Part shown: positions 720 to 20,941 of the stretch, piece after piece | Layout of the letters: every line of letters begins with the position of its first letter | How positions within the stretch are numbered: position 1 is the stretch's first letter | Virus record (IMG/VR): IMGVR_UViG_3300030329_002039 | Span: 1 to 30,936 of that record | Reading direction: 5' to 3' (one strand) | From: a virus | Length of the DNA stretch: 30,936 nt | Program-made: the position numbers and the translations under genes | Notes under the pieces: generated by a model | Told to the model about the DNA's origin: nothing | What the model saw: the letters and a program-made list of their open reading frames with translations, nothing else | Databases searched by the model: none

Positions 720-3700
720 TCAATATTGTATTATACGAGGTTGTCTTACCTTCTTTTTATCACCAAATCCTTGTTTCTTTTTAGATTTTCCCACATCTTC
801 AACGCCAAGATTCCACTTGCTCCAACCACTAAACATTAAAACTCGCTCCAAAGCACCGTGTTGGTTGTTCAAAGACTCTCTAACATTCATTGTTTTATTA
901 TATAACCTATTGAGAGGAACGTTTGTAGTTGCTTCTACATAATTTGTTACAGCTGACCATTGAGGATTGTCGATGTCAAACGTCTCCATTTCCTTTATAG
1001 TTTTCTTATTATAATTAAGAGTTTTTTCAGCGTTAACTAGTTTTCTAGCTTTAATACCAAGTGGAGGTGAAACGTTTAACATTTCCATTAATACAGCACT
1101 TTCGTCTTTATTGTAATCTTTATCTCTTTGTTCGTGCCATTTAATAGCCATGTTTTTTAGCGTAGCTATAGCAGAACCCCAAACACCAGTACCTCTTAAA
1201 ACAGAATCAATAGAACCATTGATTATTCTTTCTTTTTTCTTTAAGAATTTTTCATCATCTTCATTATCGTCGAACATCATCATAAACAACGCTGATTGTA
1301 AAGAATAGAATATTAAGTTTTGTATTGCAAAATAATAGGCTATTCTTGACAAATTAGACATATCACTTTGTAATTGAGTTGTATTACCAGGTGTTATCCT
1401 TCTATTTTTAATATCTAAAAACGCTTTTTTACCTAATCTATTAAACTGAGATGTAACATTTTGGAAAGCAAGTATAACTTTACCAAGTGGAGAGGCTTGT
1501 TGTTGCGAAACCATATCTGGTCTTGCTGACTGCTGAGTAGCTTCTGCTAATATTTCAAAATCAGTCCAAGCTTTAGTCTCAGCTTCTTTTTTAGTCATTC
1601 CTTGTTCTAAATATGTATTGATTCTATTTCTTAAAAATGTAGCACCACCAGTAGCAATCGCTATATTATCCCCAATTTGAGTTGGTAAGAAACCTAACTC
1701 TAACAACTTCTTTATTGCCGCTTGAATAGGATTTTTAGCGTTTTTAACCGATGCGGCTAATTCAGCACCATTAACATCTGTTTGAATTCCTTTACGTCTT
1801 TGTTTCATAAAGTCAGAGTTAAATATAGTTGCCCAATCAGCCCAATATTGTTTTTGATTAGCAAAAGCTTTAGCTGCTGCTATAATATTGTTATCAGCGA
1901 AGTTAATGAAATTAACCATAGACATTTGCTGTAATACAGCAGAACGAATGTTAAAGAACATTGTCGAAGCAACAGAACCGTTTAAATAGTTTAAGAATTT
2001 ATTAACTAGAGCGTTTTGTCCACTAGGTCTATTTTGACCAGTCTTAATTCTATACAACATATCTTTGATAGCACTAACAACATCAGCGCCATAAGCAGCT
2101 TCTATTTTATTTAAATTTTCTTCAGAAAATATTATATCTGTGTTTTCGTTAAACTCAGTAAAGAATTCAGCTCTTCCAATTCTACCAGTAGCATCGTCTA
2201 AATCTGTTCTTATATCTCCACCCTCCCAACTTTCAGTAGGCGCAACATACTTTTCTTGTTTAGATATCCAGTTCAACATATCAGCGTAAGTTTGTAATTC
2301 GCTATCATTCATAACTAAATCAACTAATTTTTGTTGATCAGTTGGGGATAATCCAGGGATATTATGACCATGTTTGTCCCACAAGTAAACCCTTATAGCA
2401 TCTTGATATGTAAAATCACCATCTGGAGTTTTCTTAGTTAATTTCTTTTTAATGTTTTCAAACTGTTTGTTTAATGATTTATAATCATTAGCTATAGATT
2501 GTTTAGCCGCGTTTAACTCTCTGTATGCTCTATTTAATGGTCTGATTAAAGCTTTTTCAAAAAAATCTCTATGTTGATTACCTCTTTTGCCTTTGCCCAT
2601 AAAGTTATATAATAAACCTACGAAATCCTCGTGTGATGGTGGTATAAAGAATCTAAACTTACCTTTACTTTCCCCACGTTTTCTAGCTTTAATAGCTGAA
2701 AATCTTTTCTTAGATTCAATACCAGTTACTTCTTCTAATATATTGTTAAAATCATTATTCATTGATTTACTAAACTTAACTTTAGCTTGCTGAACTTTAG
2801 ACTTAACATCGAATTGATTTAACATGTTCTCAACAGCTTGCACGTTTTGTAAAGCATCATCAGCAAAATAGAAGTCATTATAACCTTCGCCAACCTTATC
2901 AGCTATCCAAAGTGCTTTAGCTTCCGATGTAGAATTAGCTAAACCAGTAATATTTTTTAAAGGTATATTTAAACCATTTGCTTTTAAGAAATCAAATATA
3001 GCTTTAGCGGCGGCTGGTGGTCTAGCTGTTAATACAAACATATTCTCAGGACCAAACTTACCTTGTAGTTTTAAAGCCTTTTTAAATAATGGTGCTAACT
3101 TACCTTTTACAACTTTGTTGAAATCTGAAAAATCAAATGTATATCCTTTATCTAATAAATTTTCATATGTACTAGCGTATTCTTCAGCGTTTAAAGTTCC
3201 AGTAGTTCCATCTGGTCTAGTATATTTAACTAAAGATTTAGTTGTAGCTAATGTATCATCAAAATCTAAAACAGTGATACCTTTAGGTTTTTTTAATATT
3301 GATTCAACAAATTCTTTGGCTTTTTGTTTTTGAGCTTGACGTAAATCAAAATTTTTCTTAAAAGCAGATCTAGACATTTGAACAGCACTGTTAAATGTAT
3401 TAACTTCACTTATAGATTTAGAAAATTTAACGCCTGATGGGTAGTGTTTTTGTAACAAACCTGGTAAATAATTAGGATCAGAAATAGAACCCTTTGCTTT
3501 AGAAGTAAATTTAGTTGGGCTAGGCATAATTCTAGGCGCAGTAGTCCCAAACTTCATACCAGAAAAATCTTTAGCCATTTGTGTTGTAAATTTACCTTTG
3601 TCTGTTTTTGCTGGTTTTAAACTAGCTGATCTACTCATTTCTACTTGAGCTTCTGCATCTCCTTCTAGTTGAGTAACATCACCATTAAAAGTTTCGTCTT

Positions 3701-6700
3701 TACCTAAAGAAAAGAAATTACCTAAAAACTCAATATATTGCGAAGGGTGTTTTTTACTTGCGTAAGCGTTTTCTGCTAAAGGACCTAAAGGTATTTTTTT
3801 AACAATTGATTTAACCCTAACGTTTGTTGCTAGGTTTTCGCCAAGAGCAACTTGGTGTACCCAACCTGGAAAAATATCGTTAGAATTTTTTACCAACGGT
3901 AACTTTGGTTGGCCATCTTTTCTTTTAAACTTTTTTATATCAGGAGTTTTTTTACTACCCATATTAACCTCAATTGTCTCGCCATTATTCCAGGCCTCAA
4001 TAGTACTATTAACATTATCGTAGTATTCTTTTATTTCTTTCCTTACTGATTTTACAATTTTTTTTCTATTAATAATTTTTGACCCGTCTTGAGTGCTAAT
4101 ATATGGATCTTTTTTTGTAAACTTTGTGTCACCAGTTTTAACGTCATAACTAGAAATTCGATTAGAAGTTAAACGAACATCAGTAGTTCCTTGTTTTATC
4201 TCTATACCAATTCGCTTGAATACTTTTCCAGAAACATCTTTTATACCAAACATCATGTCAGCCATACTATCAACTTCTGTAGCAAATTCTGTAAGAACTT
4301 GAACTCTATCGTAGTTATCTTGTGTGACAAATCTAGTTAAAAGGTTTATAAACGCCTGTTCTAAGGCTCTTGGTTTATCCACGAATTTACCGGTAGAATA
4401 TAGTTTATCAGTTTCTAATATAACATTTTCAACAAATTGCTTGGTTTGAGAAAACTTAACACTATCAAAGCTACCTATTTGATTGTTTTGATTATCTAAA
4501 GACGCTGAAAGTTTACGCAGCTTAGCATCTACAACTTTGTTTAAGTCTGTGGAATTTGTTTCTATTTGCGTGTCTACAGCTTTTTTTGTTTTAGCCTGAG
4601 CAATAAGTTTCGCTAACGCTTTTTGTCTTGCTAGTAAAGTTGTGTATCCGCCTTCTGTAAAGTGTTTTGTCCACTTTGCTTTGTTAGTGGTTATTTTAAA
4701 TATACCTTTACCAGGATATGTAACTTTACCTGTTATTGGGTTTACTTTTTTATCTTTTTCTCTACCTGTCTTTTCAATGTCAAATAAAGTTTTGTAATTA
4801 TTTTTTATAACATCATCAGATAAAGAGTTTACTATGTCATCATAATTTAATGCGTGCCAAGCTTTGTATTCGTCACTTACAACAACCTCTCCTTTTACCT
4901 TGGAGATTTTACCCATGTCATTAAGAATTATTTTAGTAAATTCTTTTCCTATAAGTTTTTCTAGTTGTTGTTCTATATTTTTCGGATTTTGCTCTATTAA
5001 AGCGTCGACCTCAGCTAAAACTATAGCATTTATTTCTGGATTGTTTTGTAAATCTACTTCGCTTAAATCTTTTAATACCCTAGCTTTAGATTCTACTTTA
5101 GGAGCTTTTTTAGTTTTAGTAGTTGGTTTATCTGCTACTTGCATAGCTTCTTCAGTGTCTATGCTAGTTTCTCTTTTAGTTTTCTCGCCTTTAATAGCTA
5201 GTTTTTTAGCCGCAACTAATTTACCAAAACCTACATTAGCCATTATAAATTCACCAAGACCTCTTGGTCCTATAATAGTACCATCTTTTCTTTTGGCAGC
5301 AGGATCAAAGTTTATTAAACGATCAGTTACAGCATCGATAGTTTCTTGAGTTTTTTCAGGACTCATACCAAGACTTCTTATATAGTTATTTATAGCGCCA
5401 CCAGATTGTAACGATTCAAATACTGGATTAAATGTTTCTGGTTTTTGGAAGTCAGCTTTAGTAGTTGTTCCTTTTTGTAAATCGTTTATTTCATCAATAA
5501 GTTCTTTTCTTTTACCCAAAGCTCTTCGTGTACCTCTATATGAAGTCACGTCACTAGCCATAGCTGCAGCAGCAGCGGCGGTTTTTGATAATTTACCTTC
5601 GGTAACAGTAGCGCCTTCACCAGCTAAAGCTAAAGCTCTAGAACTTAACTTGTTCTTTTCAATGCTTTTACTATAATCTTTTAAGAAGTTATAAGCTTGT
5701 CTGCCGTTTTCAAAATCTTTATTAATTTTAAACTTTCTTAATATTTCTTGTATTATATTTTTAAGTTTATCAAAAACACCTTCGTTAAATGTTATTTCGT
5801 TTTTTTCTATAGCATCAGAAAATGCTGTAAATATTTCTTCTGAAGCAAATATATCGTCTCCTTCTAAACCATAACTTTCTTTTAATCTTTTTCTAACAGC
5901 GGCTTCTTGTGTTTTTGTTAAAACACCCATGAAACTTTTACCAAGGTCTATTCTACCTTCTTCACCTAAACTTTTCATGTGCTTAGCTAAAACAGCATGC
6001 AACACCTCATGTGATCCAACAGATATAGCCCCTGTTCTTCCCGCAACATCTTTATTAATAACAATAGAATCTCCTACTATAAAACCATCACCCTCAGTAA
6101 CATCTTGGTCTTCTATAAGTTTTATTTGGTCATCTGGATTGTTTTTGTTATGCTCTTCAGCGTTTCTATTATGCTCTTCTCTAATTTTATTAAACAAATC
6201 TTGAGCGCTAATACCATCATCGGTTACATGTACATCTTTACCAAGCTTTTCACCAGCAGCTTCTGCAAAAGCAATAGTGTCCGATATACTAATATCTCTT
6301 CTTGCTTTTCTAACATCAGCAGCTTCTTGTGTCGCGGCAACATCGGTTGCCCCTTCGTATTTACTTATTATATCATTAATCTGAGACTCAATGTCTGCTA
6401 AAGCTTTTTCAGCACCAGGTACTTGGTTAACGCCTTCTTTTTTAAGATCCCATTTTGCATTATCTCTTTTTTGGGCCAACACATATAAAGCTTCTCTATC
6501 TTTTTTATCTGTAATTTTTTTATCAATTTGAGAATCTAATATAGCTCTTTGTTGTTTTTCGTTTGCTTTAGCATCTAATCCAGTGAGATCATTTTCCATT
6601 TTTATATTAGCCATAGCAACATCTATATCGTCAGCTGTATCAACAAAATCTTTCATTTCGTTGTAAGTAACTTCTTTACCGTTTAATTTGTAAACAGGTG

Positions 6701-7838
6701 TTTTATGTTTTAATAAGGCTAAACCAACGTTTCCAGGTGCTGTTACTGTACCTGTTATAGCTTCAAATCCAATTTCAGCAGGATCCATTTCTTGGTCGGC
6801 AGCTAATCTACCACCAACCTCACCTAAACCACCACCAACAGCCTCAACACTAGTACCAGCCGTGGCACCAGCCAACATAGATCTTTTACCTCCTCTACCA
6901 ACTGTTTTACCCGCTTTCATAGCAGCGCCCGCGGCTAAAGTAGTGGCTTTACCAGCAATACCACCTGTAAGCGCTTCTACACCACCAATTGTTAAACCTC
7001 TACCAATTGCCTTGTTTCTTATTGATTTTCCTTTAGGACCTTCTAAAAGAGCTTTAATATTTACGTCTGTAAATTCTTTACCCTCCTTTTTTAATTCTTC
7101 TTCTATTAATTCTCCAAATGTTAAAGCGGCTTCCATTGATGTTGCTAAACCACCCATAGCACCAGCGAAACCAGTACCAAGAGCACCCCAACCAAGATAT
7201 GATCCAGCGGCAACTCCAGAACCAGCGCCAATAGCAGTTGCTTTTCTAGCTTCATCACTATCAAAAGCTGTGCCTAGTTGAGTGCCTAAAGACTGAACAA
7301 ATAATTCAGCCATTAATTTTGGGTCTCTTCCTACGCCTCTAAAAAATGCAGACCAAGTTTTACCCTCTTTCTCGTATTGCTTTTGAAACTTTTGCATTCT
7401 TTCAGATGGAACATGTGCTCTAGCTTCGCTTTCTTTTGCTTTAATAAATTCCCGGATAGTTTCCATGTCTACATTAGAGCGTTCCATTAAAAGATCGGCT
7501 GCTTCACCAGTTGTACTAGCAGCGGCCCAACCTCTGCCAAACCAAGTATTACTAAACCAACTACCGTCTTGTGATTCCGAAGAACCATCGTCCAATTGTG
7601 ACCCCATACTTTCTTGGCTCATCGTCGGGTCTCCCGTCGAGCCTGCTTGCTTTCCCAAACCTAATAAATTAGAAAAATCTTGCTTAGATTTTTTATAACC
7701 AGCTCCAGCAAAAAGATTAAAAGCATCATCAAATGCTTGTTCGTTTGAGTTAATTAGTGCTAAAAAATTATCTTTAGAGCCAGTATAACCAGCACCAGTA
7801 AATAATTGATAAGCATCGTTTAAAGCCTGTTCGTTCAT
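720..7838 (-). CDS. Giant polyvalent internal/ejection protein with metallopeptidase-like and HAD-like domains (2,372 aa)
   Basis: It lies in the T7 gene 16 position, after two other internal-protein candidates. Visible parts in order: two 30-aa repeats (residues 2-31 and 32-61); a Ser/Gly/Asp-rich linker (about 65-95); Gly/Ala-rich, possibly membrane-active stretches (about 200-240 and 278-345); an HEVLH zinc-peptidase-like site (610-614) with candidate third ligand Glu667 or Glu668; long Lys-rich helical and linker regions; a HAD-type domain with D1525-x-D1527-x-T1529, T1604 in VLTARP, K1641 and D1660-D1661; then a helical C-terminal region with a hydrophobic segment at about 2166-2189. A V-K-F-S-[KR]-S-type motif recurs at 748, 1127, 1399, 1470, 1486 and 1687. 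T7 gp16 is 1,318 aa, so this is nearly twice as long. I saw no clear transglycosylase motif. The start follows an AT-rich leader 13 bases after the 656-aa gene, and the stop is TGA. The ejection role is inferred from context. Confidence 0.85.
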   Translation of the reverse strand: MNEQALNDAYQLFTGAGYTGSKDNFLALINSNEQAFDDAFNLFAGAGYKKSKQDFSNLLGLGKQAGSTGDPTMSQESMGSQLDDGSSESQDGSWFSNTWFGRGWAAASTTGEAADLLMERSNVDMETIREFIKAKESEARAHVPSERMQKFQKQYEKEGKTWSAFFRGVGRDPKLMAELFVQSLGTQLGTAFDSDEARKATAIGAGSGVAAGSYLGWGALGTGFAGAMGGLATSMEAALTFGELIEEELKKEGKEFTDVNIKALLEGPKGKSIRNKAIGRGLTIGGVEALTGGIAGKATTLAAGAAMKAGKTVGRGGKRSMLAGATAGTSVEAVGGGLGEVGGRLAADQEMDPAEIGFEAITGTVTAPGNVGLALLKHKTPVYKLNGKEVTYNEMKDFVDTADDIDVAMANIKMENDLTGLDAKANEKQQRAILDSQIDKKITDKKDREALYVLAQKRDNAKWDLKKEGVNQVPGAEKALADIESQINDIISKYEGATDVAATQEAADVRKARRDISISDTIAFAEAAGEKLGKDVHVTDDGISAQDLFNKIREEHNRNAEEHNKNNPDDQIKLIEDQDVTEGDGFIVGDSIVINKDVAGRTGAISVGSHEVLHAVLAKHMKSLGEEGRIDLGKSFMGVLTKTQEAAVRKRLKESYGLEGDDIFASEEIFTAFSDAIEKNEITFNEGVFDKLKNIIQEILRKFKINKDFENGRQAYNFLKDYSKSIEKNKLSSRALALAGEGATVTEGKLSKTAAAAAAMASDVTSYRGTRRALGKRKELIDEINDLQKGTTTKADFQKPETFNPVFESLQSGGAINNYIRSLGMSPEKTQETIDAVTDRLINFDPAAKRKDGTIIGPRGLGEFIMANVGFGKLVAAKKLAIKGEKTKRETSIDTEEAMQVADKPTTKTKKAPKVESKARVLKDLSEVDLQNNPEINAIVLAEVDALIEQNPKNIEQQLEKLIGKEFTKIILNDMGKISKVKGEVVVSDEYKAWHALNYDDIVNSLSDDVIKNNYKTLFDIEKTGREKDKKVNPITGKVTYPGKGIFKITTNKAKWTKHFTEGGYTTLLARQKALAKLIAQAKTKKAVDTQIETNSTDLNKVVDAKLRKLSASLDNQNNQIGSFDSVKFSQTKQFVENVILETDKLYSTGKFVDKPRALEQAFINLLTRFVTQDNYDRVQVLTEFATEVDSMADMMFGIKDVSGKVFKRIGIEIKQGTTDVRLTSNRISSYDVKTGDTKFTKKDPYISTQDGSKIINRKKIVKSVRKEIKEYYDNVNSTIEAWNNGETIEVNMGSKKTPDIKKFKRKDGQPKLPLVKNSNDIFPGWVHQVALGENLATNVRVKSIVKKIPLGPLAENAYASKKHPSQYIEFLGNFFSLGKDETFNGDVTQLEGDAEAQVEMSRSASLKPAKTDKGKFTTQMAKDFSGMKFGTTAPRIMPSPTKFTSKAKGSISDPNYLPGLLQKHYPSGVKFSKSISEVNTFNSAVQMSRSAFKKNFDLRQAQKQKAKEFVESILKKPKGITVLDFDDTLATTKSLVKYTRPDGTTGTLNAEEYASTYENLLDKGYTFDFSDFNKVVKGKLAPLFKKALKLQGKFGPENMFVLTARPPAAAKAIFDFLKANGLNIPLKNITGLANSTSEAKALWIADKVGEGYNDFYFADDALQNVQAVENMLNQFDVKSKVQQAKVKFSKSMNNDFNNILEEVTGIESKKRFSAIKARKRGESKGKFRFFIPPSHEDFVGLLYNFMGKGKRGNQHRDFFEKALIRPLNRAYRELNAAKQSIANDYKSLNKQFENIKKKLTKKTPDGDFTYQDAIRVYLWDKHGHNIPGLSPTDQQKLVDLVMNDSELQTYADMLNWISKQEKYVAPTESWEGGDIRTDLDDATGRIGRAEFFTEFNENTDIIFSEENLNKIEAAYGADVVSAIKDMLYRIKTGQNRPSGQNALVNKFLNYLNGSVASTMFFNIRSAVLQQMSMVNFINFADNNIIAAAKAFANQKQYWADWATIFNSDFMKQRRKGIQTDVNGAELAASVKNAKNPIQAAIKKLLELGFLPTQIGDNIAIATGGATFLRNRINTYLEQGMTKKEAETKAWTDFEILAEATQQSARPDMVSQQQASPLGKVILAFQNVTSQFNRLGKKAFLDIKNRRITPGNTTQLQSDMSNLSRIAYYFAIQNLIFYSLQSALFMMMFDDNEDDEKFLKKKERIINGSIDSVLRGTGVWGSAIATLKNMAIKWHEQRDKDYNKDESAVLMEMLNVSPPLGIKARKLVNAEKTLNYNKKTIKEMETFDIDNPQWSAVTNYVEATTNVPLNRLYNKTMNVRESLNNQHGALERVLMFSGWSKWNLGVEDVGKSKKKQGFGDKKKVRQPRIIQY
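2844..3278 (-). other. HAD-superfamily phosphatase-like domain inside the giant protein
   Basis: Residues about 1521-1665 carry all four HAD motifs in order: ITVLDFDDTL (nucleophile D1525, acid D1527), VLTARP (T1604), a Lys in S-E-A-K (K1641), and FYFADD (D1660, D1661). The spacing fits a small cap-type member. It is flanked by V-Q-M-S-R-S at 1486 and V-K-F-S-K-S at 1687, which frame it as a discrete module. The substrate cannot be told from sequence; phage polynucleotide kinase/phosphatase-type and nucleotidase HADs are both possible. Confidence 0.85.
5997..6011 (-). other. HEVLH zinc metallopeptidase-like motif
   Basis: Residues 610-614 of the 2,372-aa protein read H-E-V-L-H, within S-V-G-S-H-E-V-L-H-A-V-L-A-K-H. 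The flanks fit an HExxH active-site helix: a small residue before it and hydrophobics after it. A-S-E-E-I-F at 665-670 is a plausible third-ligand helix. Whether the site is active, and what it cuts, is unknown. Confidence 0.7.
7656..7835 (-). repeat. Two tandem 30-residue repeats at the N-terminus of the giant protein
   Basis: Residues 2-31 and 32-61 align without gaps. Both begin N-E-Q-A, then share D-A-[YF]-x-L-F-x-G-A-G-Y, then S-K-x-[ND]-F and a final Leu-rich turn. The pattern A-x-x-L-F-x-x-x-G-Y followed by a Phe and Leu suggests a small helical hairpin unit. It may be a docking or packaging tag; that is inference. Confidence 0.85.
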
Positions 7839-12754: not shown

Positions 12755-15700
12755 TTATTTACTACTTTCTGTTATTTCTGAACTAACAGCAAATAACTCA
12801 GCTTTTTGTTTAGAATTATTTTCAAACATTATATCTGCGTAGTAACCAGATAATCCATTCATATTTACCACCTGGTTTTTCACAAATAAACAGTAATCAT
12901 TTTTCGTTGGTAACGCTCCACTATCATCTAAAGTTATAGTGTTATTATTTATATTAGTAACTACACCAGCTTTTTCCAACTGATTAGAATCTAATCTTGT
13001 AAAACCAAGCGTTCCACCTGTTACAACTGTAGGTTTCTCATAATAAACAACATCACCTATTTGAATAGAAGTATTTAAATCCCCACTAATAGTTATATTG
13101 TTGTTACTAATATTTTCAATTATTCCTAAACCTTGAATGTCAAATGATCCAAAATCAACATTACTATAATCGTTAAGTTCATCGTTTGTTGATATAGTGT
13201 TAACACCTTTAATGTAATTAAACCATTTACCTTCTTTCTTTATAAACTCAAGTAAACTACCTTCTTCGTTATTAGTTTTTACACCGCTAACATACCAACC
13301 GTCTGTTGGTGTAGAATTAAAGTGGTCGACACTATCTTCTTGTAATTGTGTTGTTATAATATCTCCAACTTCAAAATCACCAGGGTTAGAAGCAGTGCCC
13401 CAACTTCCATCAGACATTGTTCTTCTTCCAAAACCTTTTGTTGGTCCACCAGAAGGTGAAGCTGGTTGTGTTCCCAAATAATCATTATTCCAAAGTAACA
13501 TTAAACCAGTATGAATAAGTATATTGTTTCGGTATTGTTTCATTTCAACTGTAGGAGGAACAGAAGTTGAACCAACTACAACATGCCAATCTGCCTGAGA
13601 AAATAAAGAATTAGCTTCTTGTTCTTCAAAAAAGAAATATCTACCATCATTGCTGTTATAAAATTCTACCCCTGTGACTTTTATTGTTTTAACACCCTCA
13701 ATTCTAGACTGACTACCTTCATATTCTAATGTGTGATATGATTTTATACTACTAGGCGCGTCGTTTAATATTGCGTTAAAAGTAGAGTTTGTAAATTCGT
13801 TATAAAAAGTATTTCTATTTATACCTGGAACATGGTGTTGCCATAATTTACCGTTTTTTAAAGTATAATAATCATTTGCACAACTTAAACCATTTTCTGG
13901 TATAAACGATTTAAAACTCACCCAACCCCTTATATCTTCTCTAAATGAAACTGTGTTTAAATCTTCACCGTGAATAGTAACATTATATTCGTCTTGTCTG
14001 TCATCATAACTACCAATTATCTTTAAATCTTCTTTTACTACCTCTTGTACAATTATGTTTTTAATTTTAACAATCCCTAAATATGCTTGAGAATTGCCCC
14101 ATGTTTGAACCTGTGCGCCACCACCAGTAGTAGTAGAACCCGAACCAGATCCAGATACATATCCCAAGTTAGCCATAAATTGACTAATGCTAATACCGTC
14201 ATACGTTCTCGTGCCAGAAGAGTCTGTGGTTGTCACTTGGTATTGTAAGAGATCAAAAGTTGTTCTTTCAGCAACCCAAGTAACGTTAACATAAGCACCA
14301 TCTGTATTGCTGTTAGTCATATCACCAACACCTTGCCAAGTTCCTGGTGGAGAATTATTTATAGTTATTGAACTATATTCACCACTATTTTGAGAATATT
14401 TTTGATATCCACTATGCTCTACAACATCAAACTGCAACCTATAAGTTTTGCCAATTTCTAACACATCATGCATTCTCATGCTTGATGGTTTACCAAACTT
14501 AGGATGTCCAGGTTGATCGTTGTAGTAACCTAAAATAGCTTCACCATTTATTATTCTAAAGTTACCAGCCATATTCCAATTATCTTCTGAAGCGAGATTA
14601 TTTTCGCCTAACAAATTAGTTACGCCTAAAGATAAATTGTCTCTAAACCAATCTTTCATACCATGATCAGATATAGGTGTTAAGCCATCTTTAGATAATC
14701 TCATAACTGTTCCTCTAACTCTATCTGTAAAATATGCTCTATAAGCTTCTGAAGCAAATGATTCTGGATTTTTAGATATACCATATTCCCCTACGAAAGG
14801 TACTGTTTGCCCTAAAACATTTTGATTAGCTGTTAATTGAGGATTGCCATCTGCGTTAAATACCGCATCTTTGTTGGCTAATATTTTTAATACTTTGTCT
14901 TCACAAAGCGTAACTAAATCTGTGTCTCTTGAGTGTAATTTTTGTATACTACCGTATATAGGATTTATATCTTTAGTTATTTTCTCTGCTGATATAAATT
15001 GATTCAAATTGTTTACACCCGAAATAGAGTTATATAAACCAGAATATATTAAACCATATTTTCTATGCTCTTCACCATCTGAAGGAAAAGGAATTGTCGT
15101 AGAAGCTTTTACTCCATTAGAAATAAAAGGTAGATTAAAATTATCTCTTATTCTATCTGATTCAACACCATTTCCAAAAGCAAAACAATTATGCCAAGAT
15201 AAAATATACTTATTATTATACTGATTAGGATCTACATAAACGTAATTTCGTGGTACGGTATTATAATTCCAAGTAAACCCAGGAGGACTTACAACCTGAA
15301 CAATAATACTAGAACCATCTGGTTTAGTTATTTTTAATTCATCGTTTGGTTGTAAATAGCTACTACCAGTAATGTTACCATAAAAAATATTTGAATCAAA
15401 ACGTATATACCATAAAGGAGAGTAACCGATAGATTGCTCTACTTGCGTTACTTTAACATCTGAATTTGCAAAAACACTTTCAAATGTATTTCCATAAGGA
15501 ACCACTGTAGACGCTAATGGTATAGCTATATGTTTATTTTCTTCACTTAATACCATTGGGTTATATCCACTAGCCTCGTAGTATATATCTAATTCTTGAG
15601 TTTCTTTAGGTTCTGTTTCCCACACAGCTGGATTAACAGGCATTCCAGGTTCTTTTTCTATCTCTTCTACAAATTGAAAAGTGTAACAAACTGGCATTAT

Positions 15701-18700
15701 TCTAGGTATTCTAGAGTCATCATGTTCAGCTGTAACGTAAGATGATACATCGTAATACCCAGTATTGGTCATAGCAGCCGTCCACCGTATATGTTGATTT
15801 ATTCTATTACAAGAATACTGATTATAACCATTCAGTTTAGGTTGTTTAAACACCATATTTTGACCAGATGCTGGTTGTGTAGTGTAAAAATCATGCGCGT
15901 ATGTACCTGGTATATAAGTAATAGCGGCTTTACACATAGGCGTTCTATATCCAGTTAAATGTATATTCCATCTATCTATAGAACTATCTTTTTCAATTTT
16001 CCATATTAAAAGTTCTTCTCTTGCTTGACTACCATTGTAAGTCGTACCACCATTAGAGTGACTAGTTAATATCATGCCTTCTTGAAGAGTGTGTATCTCG
16101 CCATCTATAGTGTTTGTTGCTTGTAAACTAGCTACATATACTTTTGGATCATCACCTGTTACTGTACCAGCTATTGCAGCTGATATTGTTAACTCTAAAC
16201 CTGTACTTATAGGTCCTAAACTACCAGTTGGATTCCAAGGTACATTTCCTTCATTGTTTTTATCAATTGCTGAAACTTGCCATTCTTGTGAAAAATTTGG
16301 AGATAATTGAGCGGCAACCTCACGGTTATCTTGCCAGTCTTGACTACCTTGACCTTTATATGAGCCAAAATCATTTGGATAATCCACATTACTAGCCCCC
16401 GAAGTTCCTCCTCCAGGACCAGGGTGTAATGGCCCAGAGTACGGAGTAGCCCATCTAACATGTCCATTTTCACTTACTAAGTTTTTAATTGTATAAACAT
16501 TATTATTAGGGTCTTCTTTCCATCTAAAAGAAACACCTCCATTTAATTTTTCAACTATAGAACTTGTGCCACCACTGTAAGAAGGGTTACCACCATCCTT
16601 ACCTACATTCCAAAAATTTTCGATTTCAGTGAGTTGATCTTGCCGCATAGAATCCTCATGAAATATACCACCAATATTAATACTCCATAAAGAAAAATCT
16701 TCGTTGTTGTGATTAGCGTTAATACCATTAGAAGCAGTTGTAACATCATCACTAACTCTATCCCATTGGAAATCCATTTTATCACCTAGATGATTGTTAC
16801 TTACTTTTCCACGTCTAGGCCCTTCGTTTATAAACCAAACAGCGTGTTCACCTCTTCTAGGATTTTTATATGACTCGCCGTTATCGTCAGCTCTTTTGGT
16901 ATCAGCTGCGCTAACACCATTACTCCCGCAAGCCATAAATTTATCATCGGCAAATACATTACCATATGCTTGGTTAGTTTGACCATAGTCATAAAGAGGA
17001 TAGGCTGTGATCCAGGCTAACTCATCAACCCAATCAGCGTCGCCGGGATTTGGGACATCAGGAAGTTTAGGCCCAAAAGCATATTGACCAACATCCCAAC
17101 CCCCTTGGGTGTTGAAACCATTTTTCTTCATTTTATGCTCATCTTTTCGCTTGTTGTAATTCCTAAAATAACAAGCCCAAGGACCCATTCCTTGAATAAA
17201 ATTGTCAGATGTATCGCTATTTTGATCCCCTCTATCCGCGTATACACCAGCTTTCATGCCAGTCCATTTCTGTCCGTGTGTATCTTCATGGTCACCACGT
17301 ATTGAATACATTTTTTTAGCAGCTAAAACTCTATATTCAGGTTCGGTATCAACTTCTAATTGAGAAGCTAAGATAATGTTTGAATTTACTGATTGATTAA
17401 TGTTTATTTTCGCAAAAAATCTACCATCAAATTGAGCAGAGTTTTTAGGTATATATTTGTATACTCTTAACGCTACACCCTCTCTAATTTTAGTAGGAGA
17501 ATATCCACTCGCATCATCTGTTATAAAATTAACGTCATCACCTAGCTTTTTTACTAACCTAAACGTATACTTCACAGTGGATACACCAGTTTGCCCATAT
17601 GAATCCTCAGAAATACTGGATATTTGATATCTTTTTGAAGCAACTTTAGTAACGGTATCTACAAATTCAATCCATAAAAACTCGTCCCAAGTATGCATTT
17701 TAGCACTAGAACCAGCGTTGAAAGGTTCATAAAAAGTTTTAAAAGTATTTAATCCTTCTAAAGGAACGTCTATCAATGTAGTTCCAAATAAGTTATCAGG
17801 CGTACCAGTAGTAGAAGTTATACGATGAGTTATTTCTTCTATTAAAAACTTTTTCATTTTAATAAACTCAGGGGCATTTTCTTGAATATCCAACACTTTA
17901 TATTTAGTGGTATCTTCTACTAAACTACTGCTTTCTAACCCTTTTTTTAATATTATAAAATCATCAATTACTACTTTGTTTATATCAGACGATGGAAAAG
18001 ATAACCATATTTGACCGTCTTCAGCATCAAAATGTCTATCCATTGCTAAGTTGTAATATTCACCAGAAGGTTCTTTTACAAAGAACTTAAAGTAATCTAA
18101 ATTTTCTGGCGGATTAATATCATTAAATGATACTGCGAATGTATTTTTTTTATCAGCATAGATTTTTTCAATTTTTGTTGTACCTGTTTTATTAGAAACA
18201 ACAGGTGTTTCTCTACCGTATTTGTCTACAAATAAAGCGCCAATTTGATATTCCCTTAAAGATTTAATAGATGATTCAGTATTAGAACCTATATTGGTAA
18301 ATTCATTTTGTAAACTAAAATTAGGATAATAGTCACTACCATTTTGAGTTACCAAATCATAGCCTTGAGTATAATTACCGTATATAATTCTACTACCACT
18401 AACTTCTTGCGCTAATGCTTTTTTAGGTACATTATCCCAAGGTCTCAATAATTGATTAGATTCTATAGCTCTATTTATCTGTTCAGATTCTATAATATAT
18501 TCGTTTTCATCCCAGTGATTACCGCTTGTATTTGAGGTTGATGCATGCTGCGGTTTTATTGTATCAACAATATATAAATTTGTTGATGCATCATCTTTGT
18601 AAATTATATCTATTTCTGAAACACCTGTTTCGTATATATTTTGTTTAAAATCACTAACGGTAATTTTTGTTATTCTATTTACCATTCCGAGATTATAACC

Positions 18701-20941
18701 TTTTTTAGGGTGATAGTCAAAACCACCAGGTAAAAAACATACTTCAGAAAAAGGAGATATTGCTGAATACTCACCATCTTGATATTTGTATCTATATGCG
18801 ATTCTTGGAAATTTAAATTCAAATAATTTATCTGAATCCATGAATTTATCAACAGCATATTTCATCTCATCTAAATTTGATGGAACGACTGGAGGCGTGC
18901 CATTAATACCTAGTATTTTACATCTGACTTGGGCATCGGAAGCGTCTAAACGTATTAAAGATACGTTTTTTATAGCACCATTAAAACCATCGTAGCCATC
19001 ATTTTGAAATACTATTTTGTTTTGATAAGCATTCCAACTTTGATACGGTCCAGTATTAGCATTGTTGGCGTTGGCTTGTGTTATTGTAAAGTCTTGCTCG
19101 TAATGGCCATTTGAAGTAGCTGTTATACGATAAGTCCAACCCCCGACGGTAGAAGAACCTGGATTTATAATATTATTAGATACGAATAAAGTCGCGTTTA
19201 ATTTACCCCCGCCTGAGGGAGGCATATCTACAATGTCAAAACTAAATCTATATGTTGATCCTAAACTAAGGACGGTAGCAGTGTAATTGTTATAACTACC
19301 AGTATATGATTTTCTCCAAATCCCACTTGAGCTAGCCGGAACACTATAAATTATTTTTTCATCGTTTATATTATAAGAAATGTCAGATCCTGAGCTTTTA
19401 CCCCAACCCTGTGGAAAATTACCATCCGAATCAGGTATATCCAAAGGAGGGGATAATTCGGTTTGTTCGTCAGAAAAATTATTAACTGGACCCGACGATG
19501 GATCTGGCAAAATTTCTGCTTTAATAGTAAAGTCTGTTATTGGAATAGAAGGTGTTTCGCTAAAATTAACTCCTCCAAAAGGTTTGAAATGTAGTATGTC
19601 ACCAACAGCCCAATCTAACGTAAAACCACTATTACCGTTTAAATCTGTTTCTATTCTTGTTCTAAATTCACTACCAACGACAAATTGAGACCAATCATAA
19701 TAATGATTTAGCCAATCCGCGTGATTTAACCAAAAAGAAGAGGTATTATTATAATTACCACCATCACCAAGTATGGGATTACCACTATAATCAAGACCAG
19801 GCGCATCACCACCTTGTTCAGTGAACGGTATTGATGGTCTACCCGTTATTCTCATTATTCCAGAATAATTTAAATTTGGATCTCTACCAGTGTGTAATTG
19901 TATTTTAGGTGCTCTTGGTGGTTTCTTTTTAATAACAGTAATATGCTCCTCTTTTATGTCGCAGTAAACGTCTGTTTTTTCATTAATAAATTCTGTGTGA
20001 ACTAGACCACTTGAATCAGTGCCTAGTATTGAGCGTGGGATATTGATTTTTTTTGGTTCAGAATAATCATCTGTCCAAAATAACATGTCATCAATTATAT
20101 TAATACCTGTGATTAATCTATCTCGAGAAAATTTCAATACGTCACCCTGTGTATCTACTACTACGGGTGTTATCAAATTGGTTTTTGAATCGTATTCTAT
20201 TATGTAACTATTACGTTCAACTAAAGATAACTGTTGTGCACTCACTCTTTTTTGAACATTATTACCATCAGTTAGTTCAACGGCAAAAGCCATTTTTTCA
20301 ACATTATTGTTTAGAGATTTATCAAACTTAAATGTATTTACTTTTTCGCCAACTACAACATTTGTATCATAATAAGGTCTATAGCTGTTATCACCTCCAC
20401 TAACACCATAAACAAACGCCTTGGTACTATCTTGAGAGCCAGAATTATCAACTTCTTTAAATTTTGTTTTTACCTCATAAGTTCTTCCGTCAACCAAGTC
20501 AATAGGATCATGCGCGTATAGTGGAGATGGCGTACCAGTTGGATCACCACTAGATTCTATTACAACTTTATCTTTTGGTACGTATGTAGCTATATTACCA
20601 CCTGTTGGTGTCCATTTAGTAATTAATTGAGAGAGTGGAAGTGGTGGCTCTGGAATAGGAGTAACGTTCTGTAAAACTTCTCGATTGTCTTCAACAAAAT
20701 AATATAGTTTATCATTTTTTTCATCAGAAATACTACCAACACAATAAGCTGTATCACTTATAAAGTTTTGTCCAATAACTAAAGAATTACCTAATATATT
20801 TTGAATAGTGCCGACTTCAGAACCTTCTGAGGTTGACACTTGTATATTCATCGCGTCTCTATATTCTCCATTAGGAATAAGTCTCTCGTCAAGATCCTTA
20901 TCCATCTTACCCTTAGTAAAATGATGTTTAATCTCCGGCAT
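12755..20941 (-). CDS. Giant tail hub/nozzle (stabilisation-type) protein with inserted beta-sandwich modules (2,728 aa)
   Basis: It occupies the T7 gene 12 position after the adaptor proteins. The N-terminus (GKMDKDLDERLIPNGEYRDA, residues 11-30) matches my memory of nozzle/stabilisation proteins of marine podoviruses. Further core blocks are FPRIAYRYKYQDGEYSAISP (711-730), NQLLRPWDNVPKKALAQE (829-846) followed by I-I-Y-G-N-Y, and a block near residues 2000-2095 (CEDKVLKILANKDAVFNADG, RLSKDGLTPISDHGM). Between them lie at least three jelly-roll-like insertions, each with G-x-T-Y-x-[FVL] strands: about 105-243, 505-667 and 2114-2300. They resemble carbohydrate-binding modules and may contact host surface glycans. 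The C-terminus has L-S-G-Y-Y-A-D and K-A-E-L-F-A-V. T7 gp12 is 794 aa, so this is over three times longer. It starts 3 bases after the upstream stop. The tail role is well supported; the binding role is inference. Confidence 0.85.
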   Translation of the reverse strand: MPEIKHHFTKGKMDKDLDERLIPNGEYRDAMNIQVSTSEGSEVGTIQNILGNSLVIGQNFISDTAYCVGSISDEKNDKLYYFVEDNREVLQNVTPIPEPPLPLSQLITKWTPTGGNIATYVPKDKVVIESSGDPTGTPSPLYAHDPIDLVDGRTYEVKTKFKEVDNSGSQDSTKAFVYGVSGGDNSYRPYYDTNVVVGEKVNTFKFDKSLNNNVEKMAFAVELTDGNNVQKRVSAQQLSLVERNSYIIEYDSKTNLITPVVVDTQGDVLKFSRDRLITGINIIDDMLFWTDDYSEPKKINIPRSILGTDSSGLVHTEFINEKTDVYCDIKEEHITVIKKKPPRAPKIQLHTGRDPNLNYSGIMRITGRPSIPFTEQGGDAPGLDYSGNPILGDGGNYNNTSSFWLNHADWLNHYYDWSQFVVGSEFRTRIETDLNGNSGFTLDWAVGDILHFKPFGGVNFSETPSIPITDFTIKAEILPDPSSGPVNNFSDEQTELSPPLDIPDSDGNFPQGWGKSSGSDISYNINDEKIIYSVPASSSGIWRKSYTGSYNNYTATVLSLGSTYRFSFDIVDMPPSGGGKLNATLFVSNNIINPGSSTVGGWTYRITATSNGHYEQDFTITQANANNANTGPYQSWNAYQNKIVFQNDGYDGFNGAIKNVSLIRLDASDAQVRCKILGINGTPPVVPSNLDEMKYAVDKFMDSDKLFEFKFPRIAYRYKYQDGEYSAISPFSEVCFLPGGFDYHPKKGYNLGMVNRITKITVSDFKQNIYETGVSEIDIIYKDDASTNLYIVDTIKPQHASTSNTSGNHWDENEYIIESEQINRAIESNQLLRPWDNVPKKALAQEVSGSRIIYGNYTQGYDLVTQNGSDYYPNFSLQNEFTNIGSNTESSIKSLREYQIGALFVDKYGRETPVVSNKTGTTKIEKIYADKKNTFAVSFNDINPPENLDYFKFFVKEPSGEYYNLAMDRHFDAEDGQIWLSFPSSDINKVVIDDFIILKKGLESSSLVEDTTKYKVLDIQENAPEFIKMKKFLIEEITHRITSTTGTPDNLFGTTLIDVPLEGLNTFKTFYEPFNAGSSAKMHTWDEFLWIEFVDTVTKVASKRYQISSISEDSYGQTGVSTVKYTFRLVKKLGDDVNFITDDASGYSPTKIREGVALRVYKYIPKNSAQFDGRFFAKININQSVNSNIILASQLEVDTEPEYRVLAAKKMYSIRGDHEDTHGQKWTGMKAGVYADRGDQNSDTSDNFIQGMGPWACYFRNYNKRKDEHKMKKNGFNTQGGWDVGQYAFGPKLPDVPNPGDADWVDELAWITAYPLYDYGQTNQAYGNVFADDKFMACGSNGVSAADTKRADDNGESYKNPRRGEHAVWFINEGPRRGKVSNNHLGDKMDFQWDRVSDDVTTASNGINANHNNEDFSLWSINIGGIFHEDSMRQDQLTEIENFWNVGKDGGNPSYSGGTSSIVEKLNGGVSFRWKEDPNNNVYTIKNLVSENGHVRWATPYSGPLHPGPGGGTSGASNVDYPNDFGSYKGQGSQDWQDNREVAAQLSPNFSQEWQVSAIDKNNEGNVPWNPTGSLGPISTGLELTISAAIAGTVTGDDPKVYVASLQATNTIDGEIHTLQEGMILTSHSNGGTTYNGSQAREELLIWKIEKDSSIDRWNIHLTGYRTPMCKAAITYIPGTYAHDFYTTQPASGQNMVFKQPKLNGYNQYSCNRINQHIRWTAAMTNTGYYDVSSYVTAEHDDSRIPRIMPVCYTFQFVEEIEKEPGMPVNPAVWETEPKETQELDIYYEASGYNPMVLSEENKHIAIPLASTVVPYGNTFESVFANSDVKVTQVEQSIGYSPLWYIRFDSNIFYGNITGSSYLQPNDELKITKPDGSSIIVQVVSPPGFTWNYNTVPRNYVYVDPNQYNNKYILSWHNCFAFGNGVESDRIRDNFNLPFISNGVKASTTIPFPSDGEEHRKYGLIYSGLYNSISGVNNLNQFISAEKITKDINPIYGSIQKLHSRDTDLVTLCEDKVLKILANKDAVFNADGNPQLTANQNVLGQTVPFVGEYGISKNPESFASEAYRAYFTDRVRGTVMRLSKDGLTPISDHGMKDWFRDNLSLGVTNLLGENNLASEDNWNMAGNFRIINGEAILGYYNDQPGHPKFGKPSSMRMHDVLEIGKTYRLQFDVVEHSGYQKYSQNSGEYSSITINNSPPGTWQGVGDMTNSNTDGAYVNVTWVAERTTFDLLQYQVTTTDSSGTRTYDGISISQFMANLGYVSGSGSGSTTTGGGAQVQTWGNSQAYLGIVKIKNIIVQEVVKEDLKIIGSYDDRQDEYNVTIHGEDLNTVSFREDIRGWVSFKSFIPENGLSCANDYYTLKNGKLWQHHVPGINRNTFYNEFTNSTFNAILNDAPSSIKSYHTLEYEGSQSRIEGVKTIKVTGVEFYNSNDGRYFFFEEQEANSLFSQADWHVVVGSTSVPPTVEMKQYRNNILIHTGLMLLWNNDYLGTQPASPSGGPTKGFGRRTMSDGSWGTASNPGDFEVGDIITTQLQEDSVDHFNSTPTDGWYVSGVKTNNEEGSLLEFIKKEGKWFNYIKGVNTISTNDELNDYSNVDFGSFDIQGLGIIENISNNNITISGDLNTSIQIGDVVYYEKPTVVTGGTLGFTRLDSNQLEKAGVVTNINNNTITLDDSGALPTKNDYCLFVKNQVVNMNGLSGYYADIMFENNSKQKAELFAVSSEITESSK

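Follow-up and report, generated by a model that had tools for sequence, protein, structure and literature searches.

A lineage-specific motif repeated at the module borders of a giant phage protein: candidate processing sites of a modular polyprotein

The window analysed here is a 30,936-nucleotide stretch of viral DNA at its full length (IMG/VR virus record IMGVR_UViG_3300030329_002039, positions 1 to 30,936). Its minus strand encodes a giant modular protein of a marine phage in which a short motif, exemplified by VKFSKS, recurs between modules. We find that the motif lies at the borders at which related proteins exchange modules and that its copies change together within a lineage, as if read by a single partner, for which a zincin-type domain in the same chain is the leading candidate.

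Layout of the giant protein

The features of the protein are listed below in order along the chain, with residue numbers and, where informative, the AlphaFold2 predicted local distance difference test score (pLDDT).

720–7838, minus strand: open reading frame (ORF) of the giant modular protein, 2,372 residues
6429–7838, minus strand: conserved N-terminal region, residues 1–470, 71–75% identical to relatives L001 and L002
5634–6281, minus strand: zincin-like metallopeptidase domain, residues 520–735, with conserved HExxH...E residues and an AlphaFold2 model
5997–6011, minus strand: HEVLH, putative catalytic motif, residues 610–614
5835–5837, minus strand: E668, putative third zinc ligand, 99% conserved
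5580–5597, minus strand: border copy GKLSKT, residue 748, a weak form directly after the zincin-like domain; residues 725–775 have pLDDT < 50
4479–5516, minus strand: second module, residues 775–1120, a well-predicted block flanked by disordered linkers
4443–4460, minus strand: border copy VKFSQT, residue 1127; residues 1121–1134 have pLDDT < 50
3444–4442, minus strand: exchangeable module, residues 1133–1465, with few homologues
3627–3644, minus strand: VEMSRS, residue 1399, in a beta-strand of the folded module, pLDDT about 80
3414–3431, minus strand: border copy VKFSKS, residue 1470; residues 1471–1478 have pLDDT < 50
3366–3383, minus strand: border copy VQMSRS, residue 1486, the pre-HAD site, in a low-confidence helix with no clear loop
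2799–3290, minus strand: HAD-superfamily domain, residues 1517–1680 (DFDDTLA ... LTAR ... FADDA)
2763–2780, minus strand: border copy VKFSKS, residue 1687, the post-HAD site; residues 1680–1694 have pLDDT < 50
723–2762, minus strand: conserved C-terminal core, residues 1693–2372, 62% identical to L002

The family phrog_32588 matches residues 103–513 (E 3.9e-34), and the C-terminal core has at least 130 relatives in viral contigs. The second module, which contains a low-confidence stretch at residues 888–917, is the conserved upstream neighbour of the copy at 1127 (sequence cluster U4). The module at 1133–1465 is missing from most relatives; full-length homologues occur only in L059 and L225 and partial ones in L289 and L080, and no family match was found for it. 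Polyvalent-protein Pfam domains (LPD, MPTase-PolyVal and similar) were not detected in the giant at E up to 1, nor in 15 relatives at E up to 0.01, and a fold search with the 1,181-residue AlphaFold2 model, which covered residues 560–1740, returned no significant match.

The original prediction named six copies of the motif and an HEVLH sequence at residue 610, and each lies exactly where it was placed. In 5,000 shuffles of the giant, the pattern V.[FM]S[KRQ][ST], present five times, is expected 0.0124 times, and VKFS[KRQ][ST], present three times, 0.0006 times. Copies bracket the HAD domain as proposed, at 1470 and 1486 before it and at 1687 after it, and do so in homologues as well. The further proposal that copies lie in linkers agrees with the model for those at 748, 1127, 1470 and 1687, which fall in predicted disorder; 1399 is in a beta-strand and 1486 in a weak helix. 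GKLSKT at 748 is weak when taken alone; the homologous site C-terminal of the HExxH domain reads SSFSKT, TSFSRS, ISMSKT or TKASKT in other giants. The 1399 site reads IEMGSS and VLMSSS in two homologues that have that module. Lying in a folded strand and not being kept in homologous modules, VEMSRS was rejected as a border copy, and the model and alignments suggest that it is probably fortuitous. At the pre-HAD site many relatives keep only A[VI]xxSR[ST].

The motif also occurs as doublets 7–27 residues apart at single borders, in the window at 3366–3431, in L029 at residues 1143/1170, 1700/1710 and 2072/2088, and in L118 at residues 1599/1626, 2111/2118 and 2489/2504. Such doublets may be what remains of lost modules, or recognition sites that work in pairs.

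Motif enrichment in relatives of the giant

A first comparison found three relatives of the giant in viral contigs. The C-terminal core, HAD domain and N-terminal region, and then two divergent HAD domains, served as scan queries and yielded non-redundant sets from viral contigs of first 135 and later 162 giants; no relatives were found in genome contigs. Across the giants, [VIL].[FM]S[KRQ][ST] is found 129 times, compared with 5.5 after shuffling, and the control patterns (reversed, S-to-T and S-to-N) are flat. Refinement with a position weight matrix to [VI]KFS[KR][ST] yields 350 sites, spread over 119 of the 135 giants, where shuffles yield 32; in the larger set, 139 of 162 giants carry 411 sites. 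The other 744 ORFs of the same contigs hold 25 motifs against 16 after shuffling, so the motif is a feature of the giant protein alone. Literature searches turned up no description of it.

Modules are exchanged at the motif

When the window protein is aligned with L001 and L002, the N-terminal, HAD and C-terminal blocks are conserved, the middle is unrelated and the motif copies lie at the seams; downstream of the copy at 1127, for example, the modules of the window and L001 are unlike. BLAST high-scoring segment pairs start at the motif 5,261 times against a shifted-position mean of 688 (7.7-fold) and end there 2,108 times against 377 (5.6-fold). With the motif masked before alignment, the counts are 6,505 against 926 for starts and 2,471 against 502 for ends. 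At sites N-terminal of the HAD domain the masked effect is seen in block ends only, indicating that the motif stays with the upstream module. In all, the motif joins 88 downstream to 58 upstream sequence clusters in 119 combinations, and the spacing of copies is bimodal, with doublets under 50 residues and module-sized gaps of 150–600 residues. The expectation that homologues would keep the motif at module borders while its flanks drift or are replaced is thus borne out. Like polyvalent proteins, the giant is a single long chain of several distinct domains that are exchanged in mosaic fashion, and a site repeated at the module borders is a feature expected of a self-processing polyprotein.

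Copies change together within lineages

Divergent giants have few or no copies of the VKFSKS-like form (the FS motif); a different short sequence occupies the same seams instead. These dialects include VKFSKS, [VT]L[KR]SK, KRSANP, KLSENP, VESKA and KSIEY, and each recurs at the module borders of the protein that carries it. Written as patterns after inspection of the sequences, they read [VT]L[KR]S[KSE] in L145, L142, L147, L146 and L143; [KR][RK]S[AKEV][ND] at four places in L293 and L141; KLSENP/RSSENP/KLSENP in L127; ESK[AEGS] at four places in L085 and L079 and at two in L235; and [KR]S[IMA].Y in L284 and L292.

An own-allele test asked whether the eight residues after the post-HAD anchor match the remainder of their own protein better than do the corresponding residues of other proteins, with close relatives thinned by HAD identity. 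They do so with z = 6.9 for 69 giants (thinned at 85% identity) and z = 5.7 for 27 giants (70%). Control windows at offsets from -140 to +400 give z between -2.3 and 1.6, and background is reached within about four residues of the motif. For the stretch between the zincin-type and HAD domains, three degrees of thinning yield z of 9.0, 7.0 and 5.6, and the FS dialect taken separately yields 6.6; of the four control offsets used there, one (-60) rises to z 2.1–2.9. The sites thus co-vary with one another within a lineage, as those of a self-processing polyprotein should.

The copies in the window use unlike codons, including both TCN and AGY for serine, and are therefore not copied DNA repeats. 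Across the set, both serine codon classes, TCN and AGY, occur among the copies in 73 of 93 multi-copy giants (157 vs 156), the mixing recurs inside each divergent dialect, and same-codon rates at most motif positions equal the codon usage of the protein. Because the codons are mixed and not homogenised, selection acts on the peptide and on all copies together, and an origin as DNA repeats or by gene conversion was rejected. The concerted change of copies within lineages points to one reader of all copies and away from composition bias; judged from the sequences, a single recogniser would be the simplest cause. These concerted dialects are the new and surprising part of the analysis, new as far as our literature search goes.

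The original prediction had also raised the possibility that the motif is general among phage polyvalent proteins. This was not borne out for the FS form, for which no enrichment was seen in three isolate giants (elemo, ctfjg026 and Panino); scanning single proteins for self-similarity was too weak to show other dialects.

A zincin-type domain as candidate reader

Among 153 giants, H610 and H614 are invariant, E611 is present in 97% (Asp in the rest) and E668 in 99%, and these four are by far the most conserved columns of the domain. Such conservation of His, Glu/Asp, His and a downstream Glu is as an active peptidase would show. HExxH with a conserved third acidic ligand is the signature of zincin metallopeptidases, to which the domain would belong by sequence; a third-ligand role for E668 is suggested by analogy with gluzincin-type HExxH...E sites. 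The AlphaFold2 model of the domain (pLDDT 77.5) places a beta-hairpin before the active-site helix. No Pfam match was found for the domain, and a sequence search of the PDB gave no significant match.

Nearly every giant has the HExxH domain, the exceptions being mostly HDxxH versions of the same domain, so its presence or absence is uninformative as a predictor of motif number. At the equivalent place (residues 590–690) the giants display several types, HELLH, HELQHIND, HExxHAxD and HDGLH, as if the peptidase domain were itself an exchanged module. One distant full-length giant, L298, is the only one without a recognisable HExxH or HDxxH.

For sites between the zincin-type and HAD domains, dialect correlates weakly with the zincin-type domain (r 0.102, partial r 0.075, p 0.001) above seven other segments, and the post-HAD allele correlates with it as well (partial r 0.13, p 0.003). 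Dialect is not associated with the N-terminal region. The first border copy, at residue 748 directly after the domain, would fit release of the peptidase.

HAD and neighbouring modules

In the aligned sets of the HAD domain, DFDDT and the DDA within FADDA are invariant or nearly so; this DxDxT motif I with a later acidic motif places the domain in the HAD superfamily. A PDB sequence search with the domain gave no significant match. Its homologues in L134 and L152 match the polynucleotide kinase family phrog_415, and L018 has a P-loop polynucleotide-kinase-like domain at residues 1561–1754, between its copies at 1517 and 1929. The segments L018 1561–1754, L134 1669–1893 and L152 2106–2273 match phage polynucleotide kinase families (phrog_505, phrog_415 and phrog_2071). 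By these similarities the shared HAD domain may be polynucleotide 3'-phosphatase-like. Nucleic-acid repair enzymes may therefore be part of what the giant delivers, with the repair of ends as a suggested activity.

Genomic context

The window also encodes a terminase, a portal, a major capsid candidate, further head proteins and a 2,728-residue muzzle-like protein, in the same gene order as in the elemo phages and ctfjg026. The giant lies downstream of the muzzle-like and ring genes, at the same place as the giants of Flavobacterium phage elemo and ctfjg026. Because of this shared position, and because the elemo giant is annotated 'structural protein', the window giant is a probable virion cargo or ejection protein. 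The isolate giants also contain HExxH sequences, HEIFH at about residue 1552 in elemo (L008) and HEFGH at about residues 1621 and 2506 in ctfjg026 (L009); isolates with possible zincins therefore exist, though the FS motif is missing from them. The muzzle-like protein (12755–20941) matches phrog_14478 and weakly crAss_MUZ_C, and is far longer than its 1,471–1,551-residue counterparts in elemo and ctfjg026.

Discussion

The explanation that we prefer, to which we give nearly even weight, is that the motif marks inter-module processing sites of a self-cleaving modular phage polyprotein, probably cut by its own zincin-type domain. Phages would exchange modules at disordered linkers, and each linker would need the recognition sequence of its own lineage because the chain must be cut into active pieces. 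The zincin-type metallopeptidase of the polyprotein would itself make these cuts at the motif, either inside the head, ahead of packaging or while it proceeds, or once the protein has been ejected. A more elaborate version, advanced more tentatively, is a cassette polyprotein whose lineage-specific cleavage code shifts with all its copies, such that only modules flanked by the right dialect are released. Zincin autoprocessing has been proposed for polyvalent proteins, and P1 DdrB is reported to be processed before packaging (PMC5512222). From the original prediction of processing sites, the border position, the drifting flanks and, for four of six copies, the disordered linkers stand as observed; that one reader exists, that it is the zincin-type domain, that the outcome is cleavage, and when it would occur, we infer.

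Several findings weigh against this explanation. A PDB fold search with the zincin model gave no significant match, the best zincin-type hit being PPEP-3 (E 3.3). The association of dialect with the zincin-type domain is weak and partly confounded by linkage, and the post-HAD allele correlates more closely with the C-terminal core (r 0.41) and with the domain after the zincin (0.145–0.165). The motif holds no residue diagnostic of a peptidase class, and the pre-HAD copy tolerates loss of its F. AlphaFold2 places most copies without confidence, so that their docking into the peptidase is unsupported by the model. Phage N4 packages its virion RNA polymerase, another protein with an MPTase domain, without processing it (PMC5512222). 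Finally, these proteins could not be linked to any cultured phage; the giant, its HAD domain and its C-terminal core had no tblastn matches among 50,697 phage records at default limits; a relaxed search of phage records gave only a short N-terminal match in ctfjg026 (7e-4).

The copies could instead be docking or packaging peptides, bound in the linkers by one partner such that the chain is held, ordered or threaded during packaging or ejection. The partner might be the portal, a ring or muzzle protein, an internal head protein, a chaperone or the C-terminal core of the giant itself. Docking equally predicts copies that lie at borders and in disorder, selection on the peptide and dialects that change in concert; the core is the segment with which the post-HAD dialect correlates most, and crassvirus cargo proteins are kept in both head and tail and cross the tail partly unfolded (PMC10172136). 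The core correlation, however, is expected from physical linkage: at sites between the zincin-type and HAD domains it falls to 0.025–0.039, below the value for the zincin-type domain. Docking also leaves unexplained the near-invariant peptidase site that accompanies the motif, and we regard it as unlikely, though the most serious alternative.

Processing might also occur in trans, by a head-maturation protease of the phage or by a protease of the host encountered as the phage enters. The motif evidence fits this equally, a change of host could drive a change of dialect, and the protease Pro of phage P1 acts in trans, cleaving both DarA and the major capsid protein (PMC12810830). No protease family match was found among the other window genes, and the other ORFs of the contigs, among which a head-maturation protease would be expected to find further substrates, show no enrichment of the motif; a general head-protease site is thus not supported, and we consider trans processing improbable.

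That the linkers merely supply DNA homology for module swaps, with the peptide a by-product, is very unlikely. Modules really are swapped at the motif, and doublets such as 1470/1486 resemble sites left after module loss, but the two serine codon classes mix at the background rate, with no homogenisation at the DNA level. Chance, or a biased composition of the lysine- and serine-rich linkers, can claim that the linkers are polar and that one of six copies (1399) looks fortuitous, and is refuted for the set as a whole by the shuffles, the reversed and substituted patterns, the other ORFs and the control offsets, which leaves it with almost no credence.

Among known systems, the giant is close to the polyvalent proteins, which are likewise very large, multidomain and virion-type, with mosaic module order, and for which self-processing by a zincin-type metallopeptidase has been proposed (Iyer et al. 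2017, PMC5512222); a term search of that paper found no mention of linkers or linker motifs. P1 DarA and DdrB are head-packaged, processed proteins, DdrB with an MPTase domain (PMC5512222); DarA is cut near its N-terminus by the separate prohead protease Pro (PMC12810830), and a repeated inter-module site is not described. Crassvirus cargo proteins are also large and carried in podovirus virions, and the window encodes a muzzle-like protein with its weak crAss_MUZ_C match, but they are encoded by several separate genes with no protease mentioned (PMC10172136), whereas here modules and peptidase are fused in one chain. Unlike polyvalent proteins, the giant has no detected polyvalent Pfam domain.

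Prohead proteases of T4 and phiKZ-like phages recognise a short sequence repeated across several virion substrates; those sites occur in many head proteins, whereas the window motif is confined to the giant. In RNA-virus polyproteins, repeated inter-module cleavage sites evolve with the encoded protease. The giant differs in belonging to a DNA phage, in having modules swapped by recombination, in its putative metallopeptidase in place of a Cys or Ser protease, and in that its cleavage is only predicted.

The 2017 proposal that polyvalent phage proteins process themselves drew on their peptidase domains and named no sites (PMC5512222); the present analysis adds candidate sites, a lineage code and a statistical test, which make the idea directly testable. 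Were the copies docking peptides, they would be a signal, repeated along the chain, that targets the protein cargo of a tailed phage. Either way, the dialects offer a means to split uncharacterised phage giants into modules. If the cassette version is true, the giant would be a tailed-phage counterpart of the RNA-virus polyproteins, with an evolvable code of protease sites.

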